Source: Nitrospira sp. (lineage in GTDB: Bacteria; Nitrospirota; Nitrospiria; Nitrospirales; Nitrospiraceae). From it: 39,441 bases of DNA. Each line of letters opens with the position of its first letter. Position 1 is the stretch's first letter. Under the pieces are notes generated by a model that was not told where the DNA came from, made no database searches, and worked only from the letters and a program-made list of their open reading frames with translations. Location: NCBI GenBank assembly GCA_005116835.1, contig SWDM01000016.1, positions 553,564 through 593,004 of the forward strand, written 5' to 3'. Shown one piece after another: positions 9,081 to 35,930 of this stretch. The position numbers and the translations under genes were made by a program.

Positions 9081-9641
9081 TCACTTCTTTTGATTTTTTG
9101 AAGAAGGCTGAGGGTGAGAACGAAACACCTCGTAATATCGCAGTACTCTCTTTACATAGGCGCGAGTCTCTCGTATGCGCGGAACTTTGTGGCCTTTGAC
9201 CCGATGGACCCCGGCGTTATAGGCAGCCAGGGCTAACGGGAGTTCGCCATTATAAAGGTTCAGCAGATGCCGCAGTTGCTTGGCGCCTCCACGGATATTT
9301 TGGATGGGGTCATAGACGTCGTTTACACGCAACGTGGCCGCAGTCGCCGGTGTCAGCTGCATCAATCCGACCGCGCCCTTGCGCGATATCGCATGTTGGC
9401 GAAAACCGGATTCGGTCTTGATGACAGCCCGCAAGAGGGCAGGATCGAGACGGTATTTCCCGGCATACCACTTGATAGCTCGATGGATTTCCTGCTGAGA
9501 ATAGCGAGGATAGACGCTATCGTAGTCAGGCCTAGTCGGTGTGGGGGTGGCGGCGATCAGCAGACACAAGATAACGAGCGCACTAGAAATGCGCAGGAGG
9601 CGCGAACAAGACCGTCCTTCCCTTATGCTCTCGGTAGCCAT
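9081..9641 (-). CDS. Lytic transglycosylase (SLT domain), exported
   Basis: This 186-residue protein has an N-terminal hydrophobic segment (about 15-32, LLRISSALVILCLLIAA) that is a signal peptide or anchor. A compact goose-lysozyme-like SLT domain follows (about 50-165). The catalytic glutamate is E77 in KTESGF, and GLMQLTP (92-98) and AYNAG (140-144) are the two further family motifs. Such enzymes cut the MurNAc-GlcNAc bond of peptidoglycan with formation of 1,6-anhydroMurNAc. They often open the wall for secretion systems or pili. Only the pilus ATPase and PilZ genes nearby hint at that; a general wall-recycling role is equally possible. Confidence 0.92.
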   Translation of the reverse strand: MATESIREGRSCSRLLRISSALVILCLLIAATPTPTRPDYDSVYPRYSQQEIHRAIKWYAGKYRLDPALLRAVIKTESGFRQHAISRKGAVGLMQLTPATAATLRVNDVYDPIQNIRGGAKQLRHLLNLYNGELPLALAAYNAGVHRVKGHKVPRIRETRAYVKRVLRYYEVFRSHPQPSSKNQKK

Positions 9642-9999
9642 AGTGTGCTGTTACATTCCTCTGCACAAGAATTCCTTCATAGAAGCCTGGAAAGCCTCAA
9701 GATCCGTGCCCAGATGGCCTTTCGCTAACCTGTGGATGGGACAGGAAAAACGACGGTTACGCCCCATGGCGTACCGTGGTGCGATCTGCACAGGGTGGAC
9801 GTTTGGGAACTGTTGCCCTTCCACCTGTGGCACAGTTCTTTCCAGAAAAACTGCAAGGGATGTTTCAATAGAGAGCCGGGAACAGCTGCGAGAGCACAGG
9901 AGAGGCTGGTTGGCAGGGTTAGCTGGTCTATCCGGTTAGGTTAGTTTAGTTCAACCAAATAAACCAGACAGACCAAATAGACAAAATAAATAAGAATGG
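9642..9999. other. Gene-free stretch with hairpins
   Basis: I see no credible gene. The stretch holds a hairpin at about 9751-9777 (ACGGTTACGCC and GGCGTACCGT around CCAT). At about 9922-9985 an imperfect inverted repeat pairs GGTCTATCCGGTTAGGTTAG with AACCAAATAAACCAGACAGA. The second structure is AT-rich, lies downstream of the TIGR00725 gene (minus strand), and may end its transcript. Confidence 0.5.
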
Positions 10000-29181: not shown

Positions 29182-31009
29182 TTGTCTCCTGTTGTCCTAG
29201 TTCCGTTGCTCCCGCTCCTTGCGTCGCTCATCGTGCTGGTGGGCGATGAGGGATCGAGGAATCTGCGAGCCAAGATCGCGGCCTTTCCCATCTACGCTAC
29301 CTTTCTCGGCGCCATCGCGACCCTGTGGCTTGTGGCGACGGAGGGCCCTATCACCATTCGTTTCTACGACCCAGCTTCTCTCGCGACTCTGGCCTTTCCT
29401 ATCGGCTTCTACATCGACCGACTGAGCGCGGTCATGATGGTGCTGATCGCCGGTGTCGGCACCGTCATCTTCACCTATTCCATCGGCCACATGTATCAGG
29501 ATCTCCATGATCGCCGGTTTCTGGCGCTCATCGGCCTCACGATCTCTGTTCTGCTCTGCATGGTGTCCAGTGTCAACCTCATGATGCTGTTCCTGGTCTG
29601 GCAAGTCATCAGCTGTCTGCTCTATCTGCTCGCCCACAATCATTCCCACGAGGCGACGCGCAAGGGCGCCGTCAGAACCTTTACACTCTTGAGAGTCGGC
29701 GATGTGGCCTTTCTGTCCGGTATCGTGCTCGCCTATCAGCTCTACGGCACGTTGGAATTCCAGCCGCTATTCGCCAAAGCAGCCGAATCGCCCGTCATGC
29801 TCTCGCCTTGGCCTGGTATCGAGATCGGCGGGACGACGGGAATCGCGCTGCTCCTCTTCATTGGAGCTATGAGTAAGTCGGCCCAGTTCCCTCTGTTTAT
29901 CTGGCTCCCCGGCTATCTCTATGCGCCAACCCCTGCGACGGCCCTGCTGCATGCGGGGATCATCAATGCCGGCGGATTTCTCATCAACCGCCTGGCCCCG
30001 CTCTTCGGTTTGAGCCCGACTACGCTGCATGTGGCGCTGGTGGTCGGGGCACTCACGGCGATCCTCGGCGCGACCATGATGCTAGTTCAGAACGATATCA
30101 AGAACACCCTCGGTTTTTCGACGATCGGGCAGATGGGCTATATGATCATGGAGTGCGGGTTGGGCGCCTTCTCGCTGGCTGTCTTCCATCTCATCGCCCA
30201 CGGACTGTTCAAGGCCACGATGTTCCTGAATTCCGGGAACGTGATCCACAAGGCCCGCCAGGAACCGGCATTCCCCCATGCGGACCCCCACGCGGAAGAA
30301 CAGGAATTCTCACGCCTGACTTGGTTTACGGGATTCGCGACCACGCTGCTGATTCCACTGCTGATTCTCCTCGTGACCCACGGCGTGCTGCACATCCCCC
30401 TGCTGGAATCGCAAGGGACCGTGATCTTCCTGTTTTTTATCTGGGTCACGTCCTCTCAAGCCATCTTGACCCTTATCCGCCTCCCTGCTGATTCTCCTCG
30501 TGACCCACGGCGTGCTGCACATCCCCCTGCTGGAATCGCAAGGGACCGTGATCTTCCTGTTTTTTATCTGGGTCACGTCCTCTCAAGCCATCTTGACCCT
30601 TATCCGCCTCCGCGCCGTCGCGTCCTGGAAGGTCTCCGTGGCGATGTTGCTGATCCTGCTCTTCGTCGTGTTTGTCTATCTGTTCGCCGTCGAGTCCTTC
30701 ACCGCCTTCCTCTATCCGAATCCGGGGGAGGTGGCGGCCTATTTCCACGCGGCGGCGCTCCCCAATTGGCTCTTTGATGGTCTCATCGGCGGCACGGCCC
30801 TGGTGATCATTTCCGGGTGGTTCTATATCTATGCCCAAGCCCATGGCCAGACAATGTGGGTGCCAAGCTTGGCGGAAGGCCTCCGTCTCCGTCTGTATGT
30901 ATTGTTCATGAACCGGCTCTATGCCGATGAGTGTTATCAAACACTCGGTCGAGCAGTCATGCGTGTCGCCTATCGAATCGACAAACGCGTTGCACGGTGG
31001 TCGGAATGA
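29182..31009 (+). pseudogene. dabB: dabB (NuoL-like proton channel of DAB), broken by tandem duplication
   Basis: A TTG start at 29182 follows GATGAGG at 5-nt spacing. Residues 1-434 read as a NuoL/MrpA-type proton channel of the DabB group: VWQVISCLLYLLAHN, SKSAQFPLFIWLPGYLYAPT, ALLHAGIINAGGFL, NDIKNTLGFSTIGQMGYM and FHLIAHGLFKATMFL. A 127-bp exact tandem duplication (30358-30484, 30485-30611) then shifts the frame. The first frame runs on to a stop at 30777 with an unrelated tail, and the native C-terminus continues in the other frame to the TGA at 31009. With one copy removed the protein would be 566 residues, normal for DabB. It normally couples ion flow to DabA. Its stop overlaps the next ATG (ATGA). 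An assembly error is possible. Confidence 0.9.
30358..30611 (+). repeat. Exact 127-bp tandem duplication inside dabB
   Basis: Two copies, 30358-30484 and 30485-30611, with no mismatch seen by eye. The unit starts CTGCTGATTCTCCTCGTGAC and ends CTTATCCGCCTCC. 127 is not a multiple of three, so the reading frame changes by one after the first copy. Removing either copy restores a single open frame. Confidence 0.97.
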
Positions 31010-32316
31010 CGGACATCGTCCTAACTCCGTTGCTGCTGGCTGCGATTCCCCTTATCGGAGCGATACTGGGCTTCGCCGTCTGGTCTCAACCCCTCAAGCT
31101 GAAGATCTGGTCGATTGTTGTGACCGGGCTGAGCCTCCTGGCTGTCATCGGAATGTCCTGGCATCGCACCGAAACGGCTGAGGGACAACTTTTCCTCTAT
31201 CTCCTCCCACTGGCCGCCGGCATCTCTCTCTTGGGAGGGCCTGTTCACCTGCAACATCGGCTCTCCTGGATCTTGACCCTGCTGTTTCTGGGGTTAGGAT
31301 TGGGCATCCTCACGAGCCAACAGGTTGTGGGCCAGATCGTGCTGGTTCTACTCCTTGGTCTCATTACCTTCCTCCTCTACTGGCATCACAATCCGTTTTG
31401 GCCTAGATCCTGGTGGGGGATCGGCGCCTATGGTCTTGGGACCCTCTGTGCCGGACTCGCTGTGATCGCAAGCCCTCCTGTCTCCACACTGGCTTCCCTA
31501 CTAACCTGCGCCATCCTGCTGCCACTCGTGCCGCTCCATCAAGGGTACGTGAGCGCGCTCACACGATTGCCGGGCAGTTTGCCGTCGTTCATTGTGCTGC
31601 TGCTCCCTGCCATAGGATTCCATTGTCTCGCCACGATCATCCCGATGGTACCGGATGTCGCGATTTCAACGGTGACGGTGTTGGCCTTGGTGGGTGCCCT
31701 CTACGGTTCGGTCAAGGCGCTGGCGCAATCGCGCGTCAGATTGCTCCTCGCCTATGGCAGCCTCTCGTTCTTTTCCATACTCTGGTGGTTTATGGTCGTA
31801 TCGCGAACTGTCATGCCTCAGGCTGTGGTCTTTCTGGGCGCCGTGGCACTCGTGACGAGCGGCCTGTTACTGTCTTGGCAAGTCGTCCGTACGCGCTACG
31901 GGGACGATGTGGATCCGCAGGCCATCAGCGGGCTTGTCAGGAGAATGCCGCAATTCGCCGTCCTGTTCTCACTCCTGGCGCTGGCGGCTATGGGCCTGCC
32001 CCCATTCGGTGTCTTTGCCGGCTTCATCGGGATGCTTCTTACCGCCTCTCTCACATCGTCTGTCGCCCTGCTTGTCCTCATGGTTGCCTGGCTGGCAGCA
32101 TCCTGGTACATCCTTGACATGGTGCAACAGTTACTGTTTGGCCGGGAACGATCGGACCTCCGGTATGAAGATCTTCGCCGCTCGGAACTCGCGTCTCTTC
32201 TGTTAGTCGTGCTGATTGTCATCGCGCTAGGTGTTGCGCCGGCCAGCCTATTCGGTATCGCGCAACCATCGCCGAGCGGTGGAGCCGTCAAGGAATCCGT
32301 CTCATGGAATCGCTAG
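31006..32316 (+). CDS. Second NuoM/NuoL-like membrane subunit of the dab operon, degenerate
   Basis: The ATG at 31006 overlaps the dabB stop (ATGA), which fixes the start. The 436-residue product has about a dozen hydrophobic helices. Recognisable antiporter-family segments are PLVPLHQGYVSALTRLPGSL (where relatives have a W-L-P-x-A-h segment), ALAQSRVRLLLAYGSLSFFS (relatives: D-I-K-x-L-L-A-Y-S-S) and MGLPPFGVFAGFIGML. The lysine expected in the helix after the PLH motif is absent (VLLLPAIGFH), as is the acidic residue in GLPPFGVFAGF. Such residues carry protons in NuoL/M/N, so this subunit may be structural. It overlaps dabA by 13 nt. I know no standard name; the two-subunit DabA-DabB system lacks it. 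Confidence 0.82.
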   Translation: MTDIVLTPLLLAAIPLIGAILGFAVWSQPLKLKIWSIVVTGLSLLAVIGMSWHRTETAEGQLFLYLLPLAAGISLLGGPVHLQHRLSWILTLLFLGLGLGILTSQQVVGQIVLVLLLGLITFLLYWHHNPFWPRSWWGIGAYGLGTLCAGLAVIASPPVSTLASLLTCAILLPLVPLHQGYVSALTRLPGSLPSFIVLLLPAIGFHCLATIIPMVPDVAISTVTVLALVGALYGSVKALAQSRVRLLLAYGSLSFFSILWWFMVVSRTVMPQAVVFLGAVALVTSGLLLSWQVVRTRYGDDVDPQAISGLVRRMPQFAVLFSLLALAAMGLPPFGVFAGFIGMLLTASLTSSVALLVLMVAWLAASWYILDMVQQLLFGRERSDLRYEDLRRSELASLLLVVLIVIALGVAPASLFGIAQPSPSGGAVKESVSWNR

Positions 32317-35300
32317 ACCGTACGATCGACATTGAAACCAGGCGCATGGAGCTCCGGGGTGTGATCCGCCTGGCGGGCGAGGTCATTGCTCAATATTGGC
32401 CGATGCGGACCTTCGTGCATCATAATCCGCTCCATAGCCTTGAGTATCTGCCTTTTGAAGAAACGGTCAAGCGCGGCAAACAGTTCTTAGGAGGAAACGG
32501 ATATCTTCCCAGCCATCTCTATCGCGAGTACCTCCGCTCAGGCAGGATCCAACTCCGGCACCTCGATGCCGCCCTCATGCCGCTGGCGCAGGACAAATAT
32601 ATAACCCTCGGATCCCGCACAGTCGCTCACGGCGAAGTCCTCTGCGCGTGCCTGGTCGAAGGTCTCTGCACGCCGACGGAAGAACCACTCGAGGCTCATT
32701 GGGATCATGATCCCCATCACCAGTTGGTCGAGTCACTGACCGACCGCCTCGCCTCCGTCCTCACCTTTCCGGACTTACGCGAGAAGATACAGACCGTGGC
32801 ACAGGGGGATCAGGCGGCACTGGGTCGCTGGATCACGCTTTCTCACTGGTGCGACCAGACTCTCGGCACGCAGATCGTGAACCAAATCAACAGCGAGTTG
32901 ATCAAGTGGTGCGAGGCCTTTCTGGACGAGGGTCATGCTACCTGGCCCATGCCGGGCCGGGAAAAAGGATTGTACGGAGCCTGGAAATCCCTCGCGGCAC
33001 TGGAATGGTCACCCTGCGGGATTGCAGACAGCCGAAGGAAAATCTCGTTGCTGCCAGACCACCCGGAAGATGCATTGCTGGATAGCCTCGACGCCCTTGC
33101 GATTCCCACAGAACTCCGGCAGGACTATCTGTCTCTCCAGCTGACGGCGCTGCCGGGCTGGGCCGGATTCATCAAGTGGCGCGCCGAGGAACGAGACTAT
33201 GCGTGGCAGCGGGCCTACCCGGTCGGTTTGGTGAAGTATCTCGCGATTCGTCTCTGGTATGCGAAGGAGTTAGTGCAAAAGGCCTGCAAGGAGGAGCTGG
33301 GCATCGATGGACAATACCAAGCAGTGACAGATTATATGCAAGGCAATACCAGCGAGTACTTCCTGAGAAGGGAGCGGGTTGCCGGCCGTCTTCCAGCAGC
33401 CTATGCGGAGGAAGTCGATCGTCTCGGTCATCAAAAGAAACACGGCTGGGAGGGGCTATTCAACCGCTACAGAACTGACGTCGTGCCCCGCCAGGAACGA
33501 GTCGCTCAGCGGGGCGCAGCCAAACAGTTGTGCGCCCTGGCCCTGGCCCTGCATCTCGATCCAGCCGCACTGTTGGACAACTCGCCGGCCGATCTCAGGC
33601 AGCTTGTGGATTGGATGAAAGATTTCCCGGAATCGGACCATGGCCCTGTCTGGCTCAAGGCCTTCGAAGCAGGGTATCAGGAGCAACTACTCGGAACCCT
33701 CGCTCGGGCGCAGGCCGCGTCTACGTCAGCCGCACGGAGACTCTCCGAGCATCAGGCGGAACGGCCACTCTCTCAATCAGTTTTCTGCATCGACGTACGC
33801 TCTGAACCGTTCCGGCGCCATCTCGAATCCACCGGCGCACACGAAACCTATGGATTTGCCGGCTTCTTCGCCGCTTTTATCCGTTATCGAGCCTGGGGCA
33901 AGGAGCATGACACGGAGCAATTCCCGGTGATCATGCGCGCAAAGAACGAGATCCGAGAAATTCCCCGCAGCTATCTGGATCACGCGCTGTCGAAACACGA
34001 GTCTCGCACCAGGATGGTCCATGCAGGCCATACCCTTCTACACGACTTAAAAGAAAACGTCGTCACGCCCTATGTCATGGTGGAGTCGTTGGGATGGTTT
34101 TACGGCCTCCCGATCTTTGGGAAAACCTTACTGCCCTTATTGTACCGTCGCTGGACCGCCTGGTTGCGGCGAATCTTGGTCCCGTCGCTCGCGACAACAC
34201 TCACCGTCGACAAGCTCCCGCCGGCCGAAACGGCAGACGTGTTGGCGGCGGAGCAGCAGGCGACCGTGCGACGGGCGTTACAAGAACGAACCGGCTTACG
34301 CAGCTCGCGGATCACGCTGGAGTTGGTCGAGGCCCTGCGGCAGCGGGCCTTAAGCGGGGAAAGCGACCCGGAACCTCCGTTGACTGCCGCAGCGACAGAA
34401 GCGGGGCTCTCGTCTGACGTCCTGACGTCATTCGTCGCGGCGTTACGACAACAGTACGGCATCAATCAGCGCGCCTCTTCCAGACAGAAGGAACGGATTA
34501 CGCGGACCGGCTTCACGCTTGAAGAGCAGGCCGTGACTGTCGAGACGGCGTTACGCATGATGGGACTGACGAAACATCTGGCCCGGCTTGTCCTCATTTG
34601 CGGCCACGGAAGTACCTCGGACAATAATCCGTTCGAATCCGCATTGGATTGCGGGGCTTGCGGAGGCAACGAAGGTAATCCGAACGCCCGTGTGCTCGCC
34701 ATGATGGCCAACAATCGAATCGTAAGGGAACGGCTGGCAAAGAGCGGCATCGCGATTCCCTCAGACACCCACTTTCTCGCAGGCCAAGTCGATACCACGA
34801 CCGATGAAGTGCAGCTCTACGACCTTGAAGATGCGCCGCCGACCCATCGTGCCGATCTTGCCCGACTGGTCGAAGACCTGAAAAAAACGACCAGCCTGAC
34901 GAATCAAGAACGATGCACCCGTTTCCCCGATGTTACATCGACCCTGTCGGCGCAGGGAGCGGCGGCGCATGTGCGACGTCGAAGCGTAGATTGGAGCCAG
35001 ATACGACCTGAATGGGGCCTGTCGGGGAACACGGCCTTCATCATCGGCCATCGGGATCTCACCAAGACCCTTGATCTGACCGGACGCGTCTTCCTACATT
35101 CCTATGACTACCGAGAAGACCCGAGCAATCGGTTGCTCGAAGTGCTGTTGACCGGTCCTCAGGTGGTGGCACAATGGATCAACATGGAACATTATTTTTC
35201 GGCGGTGGACAACGAGGTCTATGGCGGCGGGAGTAAGATTTACCATAATGTGGTGGGACGCATCGGCATCATGTCCGGCCCTTGGAGCGATCTCCGTCTC

Positions 35301-35543
35301 GGACTGGCCCGGCAAACCGTCATGAACGGCGACGTGCCGTATCATGAACCGATGCGCCTGCTCACCGTCGTCGCGGCGCCGAGAGAACGGATCGAGAAGC
35401 TGATTGCGCGCCATGAGACATTGGAACATTACTATCGTAACGAATGGGTACACCTCGTCGCGCTAGAGCCGGAAGAAGGAATCTTCTATCGCTATCGACC
35501 GACGGGCGAATGGGTTAGAATCGATGAAACATTCGGCTCTTGA
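32304..35543 (+). CDS. dabA: DabA (DUF2309), zinc subunit of the inorganic carbon transporter
   Basis: The 1079-residue protein belongs to DUF2309/UPF0753, the DabA family. Conserved N-terminal motif: MRTFVHHNPLHSLE (about 34-47). The zinc site expected from DabA work is present: C495 and D497 in FCIDVRSE, H768 in ICGHGS, and C783 in LDCGACGG, with the same His-to-Cys spacing of 15 as in the studied protein. DabA resembles beta-carbonic anhydrases in its site and converts CO2 to bicarbonate in the cytoplasm when coupled to DabB. It is somewhat longer than many relatives. It is the third gene in the operon and overlaps the second membrane subunit by 13 nt. Active site residues appear intact, but function needs DabB. 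Confidence 0.95.
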   Translation: MESLDRTIDIETRRMELRGVIRLAGEVIAQYWPMRTFVHHNPLHSLEYLPFEETVKRGKQFLGGNGYLPSHLYREYLRSGRIQLRHLDAALMPLAQDKYITLGSRTVAHGEVLCACLVEGLCTPTEEPLEAHWDHDPHHQLVESLTDRLASVLTFPDLREKIQTVAQGDQAALGRWITLSHWCDQTLGTQIVNQINSELIKWCEAFLDEGHATWPMPGREKGLYGAWKSLAALEWSPCGIADSRRKISLLPDHPEDALLDSLDALAIPTELRQDYLSLQLTALPGWAGFIKWRAEERDYAWQRAYPVGLVKYLAIRLWYAKELVQKACKEELGIDGQYQAVTDYMQGNTSEYFLRRERVAGRLPAAYAEEVDRLGHQKKHGWEGLFNRYRTDVVPRQERVAQRGAAKQLCALALALHLDPAALLDNSPADLRQLVDWMKDFPESDHGPVWLKAFEAGYQEQLLGTLARAQAASTSAARRLSEHQAERPLSQSVFCIDVRSEPFRRHLESTGAHETYGFAGFFAAFIRYRAWGKEHDTEQFPVIMRAKNEIREIPRSYLDHALSKHESRTRMVHAGHTLLHDLKENVVTPYVMVESLGWFYGLPIFGKTLLPLLYRRWTAWLRRILVPSLATTLTVDKLPPAETADVLAAEQQATVRRALQERTGLRSSRITLELVEALRQRALSGESDPEPPLTAAATEAGLSSDVLTSFVAALRQQYGINQRASSRQKERITRTGFTLEEQAVTVETALRMMGLTKHLARLVLICGHGSTSDNNPFESALDCGACGGNEGNPNARVLAMMANNRIVRERLAKSGIAIPSDTHFLAGQVDTTTDEVQLYDLEDAPPTHRADLARLVEDLKKTTSLTNQERCTRFPDVTSTLSAQGAAAHVRRRSVDWSQIRPEWGLSGNTAFIIGHRDLTKTLDLTGRVFLHSYDYREDPSNRLLEVLLTGPQVVAQWINMEHYFSAVDNEVYGGGSKIYHNVVGRIGIMSGPWSDLRLGLARQTVMNGDVPYHEPMRLLTVVAAPRERIEKLIARHETLEHYYRNEWVHLVALEPEEGIFYRYRPTGEWVRIDETFGS

Positions 35544-35588: not shown

Positions 35589-35930
35589 GTGGGCGCGTTG
35601 ACATTACATCCGATGAAGGAAATTCGGGTGATCGTGGCGGGGGAACACCAACCGTTTGTGACCGAGTTGCTAGACCAAGTCAAAGCGACCGGCTATACGA
35701 TCATCGGCAATGTGTCGGGCAAAGGCCATAGCGGCGTACGTGAAGCGCATTTCATGTTCAGCGAGCAGGAAAGTCTTGAGATGATCATGACGATCGTCCC
35801 GGAAGAAAAAGTGGAGCCCATTCTGGCCGGGCTTCGTCCCCTCTTTGAACGCCACTCCGGCATGATGCTCGTCACCGACGTGGCCGTAAGTCGGCAAGAG
35901 TATTTCGGCAAGAAAGAGAAAAGAGCCTGA
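35589..35930 (+). CDS. PII-like signalling protein of the dab operon
   Basis: A GTG start at 35589 follows AAGGAAGGAG at 8 nt. The 113-residue protein has the ferredoxin-like PII pattern: EIRVIVAGEHQPFVTELLDQ, KATGYTIIGNVSGKGHSG (loop region), MIMTIVPEEKVEPILAGLRP and a C-terminal GMMLVTDVAVSRQEYFGKK. PII-like proteins bind adenine nucleotides. A subgroup (CPII, SbtB) works with bicarbonate transport and responds to bicarbonate or cAMP/AMP. The gene is 46 nt after dabA on the same strand. It probably adjusts DAB activity to energy or carbon status, as inferred from position. A partial, frameshifted copy of its 3' end lies at 37299-37407. Confidence 0.8.
   Translation: MGALTLHPMKEIRVIVAGEHQPFVTELLDQVKATGYTIIGNVSGKGHSGVREAHFMFSEQESLEMIMTIVPEEKVEPILAGLRPLFERHSGMMLVTDVAVSRQEYFGKKEKRA

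Follow-up and report, generated by a model that had tools for sequence, protein, structure and literature searches.

The exact 127-bp tandem duplication that breaks dabB in the Nitrospira sp. window (the whole stretch of DNA that was analysed, 39,441 nucleotides) is almost certainly an assembly artefact, and its second copy is in all likelihood absent from the organism. This reading is favoured because the length of the duplicated unit equals the length of contig-end overlaps in the same assembly, because a duplication of 127 bp recurs in an unrelated gene on contig C11, and because the relatives examined lack such a duplication. A first-pass annotation of the window had considered a recent mutation event, possibly a reversible on/off switch, or an artefact of assembly; the last of these options is strongly favoured by the overlaps, the recurrence on C11 and the single copy in relatives.

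The repeat and the dabB reading frame

Two copies of the 127-bp unit (30358-30484 and 30485-30611) lie directly adjacent to each other and are 100% identical, just as the first-pass annotation had described them, and the origin of such an exact repeat by chance is far too unlikely to be considered. The run of matches at period 127 is itself exactly 127 bases long and leaves no extra microhomology. The dabB open reading frame (start 29182) enters copy 1 at residue 393, in frame. Past copy 1 the frame shifts; the reading frame as assembled stops at 30777 after 531 aa, and the remaining C-terminal part lies in a different frame that ends at 31009. The annotated expectation that removal of one copy yields a 566-residue frame agrees with the arithmetic ((31009-29182+1-127)/3-1), and intact dabB products of relatives measure 562 aa and 566 aa. 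Aligned to these intact relatives, the pieces of the window dabB represent two halves of one protein that overlap by the 127-bp unit.

Table 1 Features of the dabB region and the downstream genes (window coordinates)
Feature	Position	Strand	Basis or remark
dabB 5' part, to end of copy 1	29182..30484	+	ORF list; PF00361 and PF00662 matches; 92% and 90% identity to best relatives
127-bp unit, copy 1	30358..30484	+	exact tandem repeat
127-bp unit, copy 2; probably untrimmed contig overlap	30485..30611	+	identical to copy 1; length equals contig-end overlaps of the assembly
dabB 3' part, other frame than 5' part as assembled	30485..31009	+	ORF 30500-31009; aligns with C-terminal part of intact relatives
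Antiporter-like membrane protein, intact, overlaps dabB stop codon	31006..32316	+	PF00361
dabA, intact	32304..35543	+	PF10070
P-II-like protein, intact	35589..35930	+	PF00543

The claim that the genes downstream of dabB are intact was confirmed, as the reading frames for the antiporter-like protein, DabA and the P-II-like protein are all whole. The window encodes DabA (PF10070) together with a PF00361 membrane subunit, the gene content of a predicted DAB pump operon. The DAB inorganic carbon pump is composed of DabA (PF10070) and DabB (PF00361), as in DAB2 of Halothiobacillus (PMC13144422). The window resembles this system in encoding a DabA-family protein with PF00361 membrane proteins, but it differs by an extra antiporter-like gene that separates dabB from dabA; two dabB genes, as found in several Nitrospira, are a further difference. 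The broken dabB of the window would be another difference, but the break is probably not real. Nothing in the present analysis points to a broken channel, and the proposal that this genome carries a DAB operon without a working channel was not sustained. Elsewhere in the window, at 1678-1712, the motif GTGA is repeated 8.8 times with no mismatch in an apparently intergenic position, where it may form a length-variable repeat.

Contig-end overlaps in the assembly

In a series of word lengths that is widely used with SPAdes, 127 is the highest value, and we therefore asked whether this number is special in this assembly. Comparison of contig ends within the assembly identified overlaps of exactly 127 bp, the length of the dabB unit, between contigs C17 and C7 and between both ends of C9; other end overlaps measured 117 and 125 bp. 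The ends of C9 cut the rpoC gene, and when the 127-bp ends were merged a single frame of 1392 aa resulted. Given these overlaps and the restoration of rpoC on the merged C9, 127 is very likely the overlap of the assembler. Its word length was thus probably 127, a value taken from the contig ends and not from a stated method. One survey of Nitrospira metagenome-assembled genomes (MAGs) used IDBA-UD with metaWRAP reassembly (PMC9714041) and the nine genomes of another report were assembled with Unicycler (PMC12342949); we found no tie of either to this genome.

Contig C9 (G000:C9:1-16499, L040), with its exact 127-bp direct ends, carries genes that we named by eye as tuf, rplA, rplJ/L, rpoB, rpoC and fusA, all of which are normally chromosomal. 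It is probably a segment of the chromosome that was closed into a false circle and cut out between two copies of tuf. Contig C19 breaks off inside a tuf gene that lies next to rpsJ-rplC (names again by eye), and from common bacterial gene order we infer two tuf genes in the true chromosome. Overlaps were also left in place at joins. On C8, the contig of the window itself, a 100-N scaffold gap stands between identical 124-bp ends (L077, G000:C8:500001-520000, at 9506-9853). This gap is probably not real, its flanking contigs overlapping instead, and it follows that overlaps were not always trimmed where contigs were joined.

Comparable traces have been described. In CheckV, repeats of k-mer length at the ends of circular contigs are treated as a trace of the assembler (PMC8116208); the likeness lies in an exact direct repeat as long as the assembler's word, and C9 is of the type described there, whereas in the window the repeat sits at a join inside a contig, not at the termini of a circular one. 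Mis-assembly has also been reported to create false duplications (PMC2864568, PMC9516828). They share with the present case a duplicated stretch in the assembly that has no counterpart in the genome, but those cases concern mainly diploid genomes and long segments, while here a single overlap length in a bacterial draft is involved.

Tandem duplications elsewhere in the genome

The window and 80 further stretches, together about 1.54 of the 3.94 Mb (~39% of the genome, so that the count is a lower bound), were scanned for tandem duplications that are exact over the full unit and 60 bp or longer; contig C2, which consists of N only, was ignored. Three such duplications were detected, two of them with a period of exactly 127 and a match run of exactly 127. 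Natural tandem duplications vary freely in length, and the sharing of one length by two of three is therefore not expected. The second 127-bp duplication (C11:9200-9453, L042) lies in an unrelated gene, again has no microhomology at its ends, and shifts the frame of a DnaJ-like gene (a label that rests on its N-terminus, named by eye), whose pieces appear as two reading frames, 218 and 329 aa long, that are out of register with each other. At this locus the frame stays open for about 300 aa in most relatives. The C11 duplication is very probably the same artefact as that in dabB. The third duplication, an exact 81-bp repeat at 10528-10689 of L089 (G000:C11:80001-100000), is probably located between genes and differs in length from the contig overlap; it counts against the artefact, as exact tandem duplications in this genome are not limited to 127 bp.

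The proposed mechanism is as follows. The assembly would have been built from a de Bruijn graph with a word length of 127, in which adjacent contigs would have exactly 127 bases in common. Two contigs of this kind would have been joined end to end at 30358-30611 with the common 127 bases kept twice, and the doubled overlap would have shifted the frame of a dabB that the organism itself would carry intact. The observed parts of this model are the 127-bp contig-end overlaps, the second 127-bp duplication in an unrelated gene and the gap between identical 124-bp ends; the program, its word length and the failing step enter it by inference.

Copy number of the unit in relatives

Among named genomes, Nitrospira MAGs come closest, some of them with isolate names RSF. 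When the two halves of the window dabB were placed on the loci of relatives, they overlapped by exactly 127 bases, the length of one copy, in 66 of the 75 loci, and the exceptions that were inspected (L115, L116, L123 and L125) were explained by incomplete matches or by matches to a second dabB copy. The relatives' loci, 640,737 bases in total, yielded no tandem duplication of 60 bp or longer that was exact over the full unit, and a search of a plasmid collection gave no match. A comparison of strains for one versus two copies had been suggested with the first-pass annotation; among the relatives examined only one-copy states were identified.

Alternative explanations

A larger artefact, compatible with that proposed above, deserves consideration, and we regard it as possible, if somewhat less probable than its opposite. 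The organism may possess a tandem pair of dabB genes with an identical stretch in common that begins at 30358; the assembly would then have run from the first gene into the end of the second and skipped the intervening loop of ~1.9 kb, the dabB of the window would be chimeric, and the untrimmed 127-bp overlap would mark the start of the stretch common to both genes. In each of the six untruncated loci in which the first dabB is the best match to the 5' part of the window gene (L112, L113, L115, L116, L126 and L127), a second dabB lies 1.8-1.9 kb downstream. The body of the window gene is of the first-copy type and its last ~100 bp are of the second-copy type; against L112, the informative sites agree with the first copy as far as ~30905 and with the second from there on, and the tail is also second-copy-like against L115 and L113, where the switch points are less sharp. 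The similarity between the two copies of L115 is highest from the start of the unit to about +400. The same assembly, moreover, placed rpoB-rpoC-fusA, next to tuf, on a separate closed circle (C9), and C19 stops in tuf by rpsJ. No second dabB was found in the bin, and a loop of ~2 kb could fall under the length limit of binning.

Other observations argue against a lost gene. Relatives with a single dabB exist (L117 and L119-L122), and L119 is a closer match to the genes downstream of dabB in the window than L112 or L115 is; a real, single, recombined dabB is therefore possible. In addition, the switch lies near 30905 against L112 but elsewhere against L115 and L113. A switch from first- to second-copy type exactly at the 127-bp unit was considered and not upheld, the change falling at ~30905 against L112, nearer 30238 against L115, and being weaker against L113. 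The dabB copies of L115 seem themselves to have been converted. In the six two-copy loci the tandem dabB genes show patches of raised similarity to each other, which look like the result of gene conversion.

A real and recent tandem duplication, produced by slippage or illegitimate recombination and inactivating dabB in the strain or in part of the population, is very unlikely. Tandem duplication mutations do occur in bacteria, and the exact copies and the shifted frame would suit such an event, but its length would have to coincide with the contig overlap of the assembly and to recur in an unrelated gene. Neither the dabB nor the C11 case has microhomology at its ends, and the duplication is absent from all relatives examined. 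The annotated interpretation as a recent mutation is thus not supported.

Slippage or recombination can cause exact tandem repeats to collapse, and altering the count by one unit does, by arithmetic, restore the dabB frame, but a reversible switch, by which gain and loss of the copies would turn the DAB carbon pump of a nitrifier off and on, would require the match to the assembler overlap to be coincidence; with the two-copy state present in no relative examined and every point against a real duplication counting here too, this part of the annotation can be set aside as exceedingly improbable.

Implications

The comparison of the length of an exact tandem duplication with the contig-end overlaps of the same assembly provides a simple check for draft genomes. 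This genome may carry either one dabB gene or two. For the biology of this Nitrospira, reading the repeat as an artefact guards against wrongly describing a broken carbon pump or a new switch.
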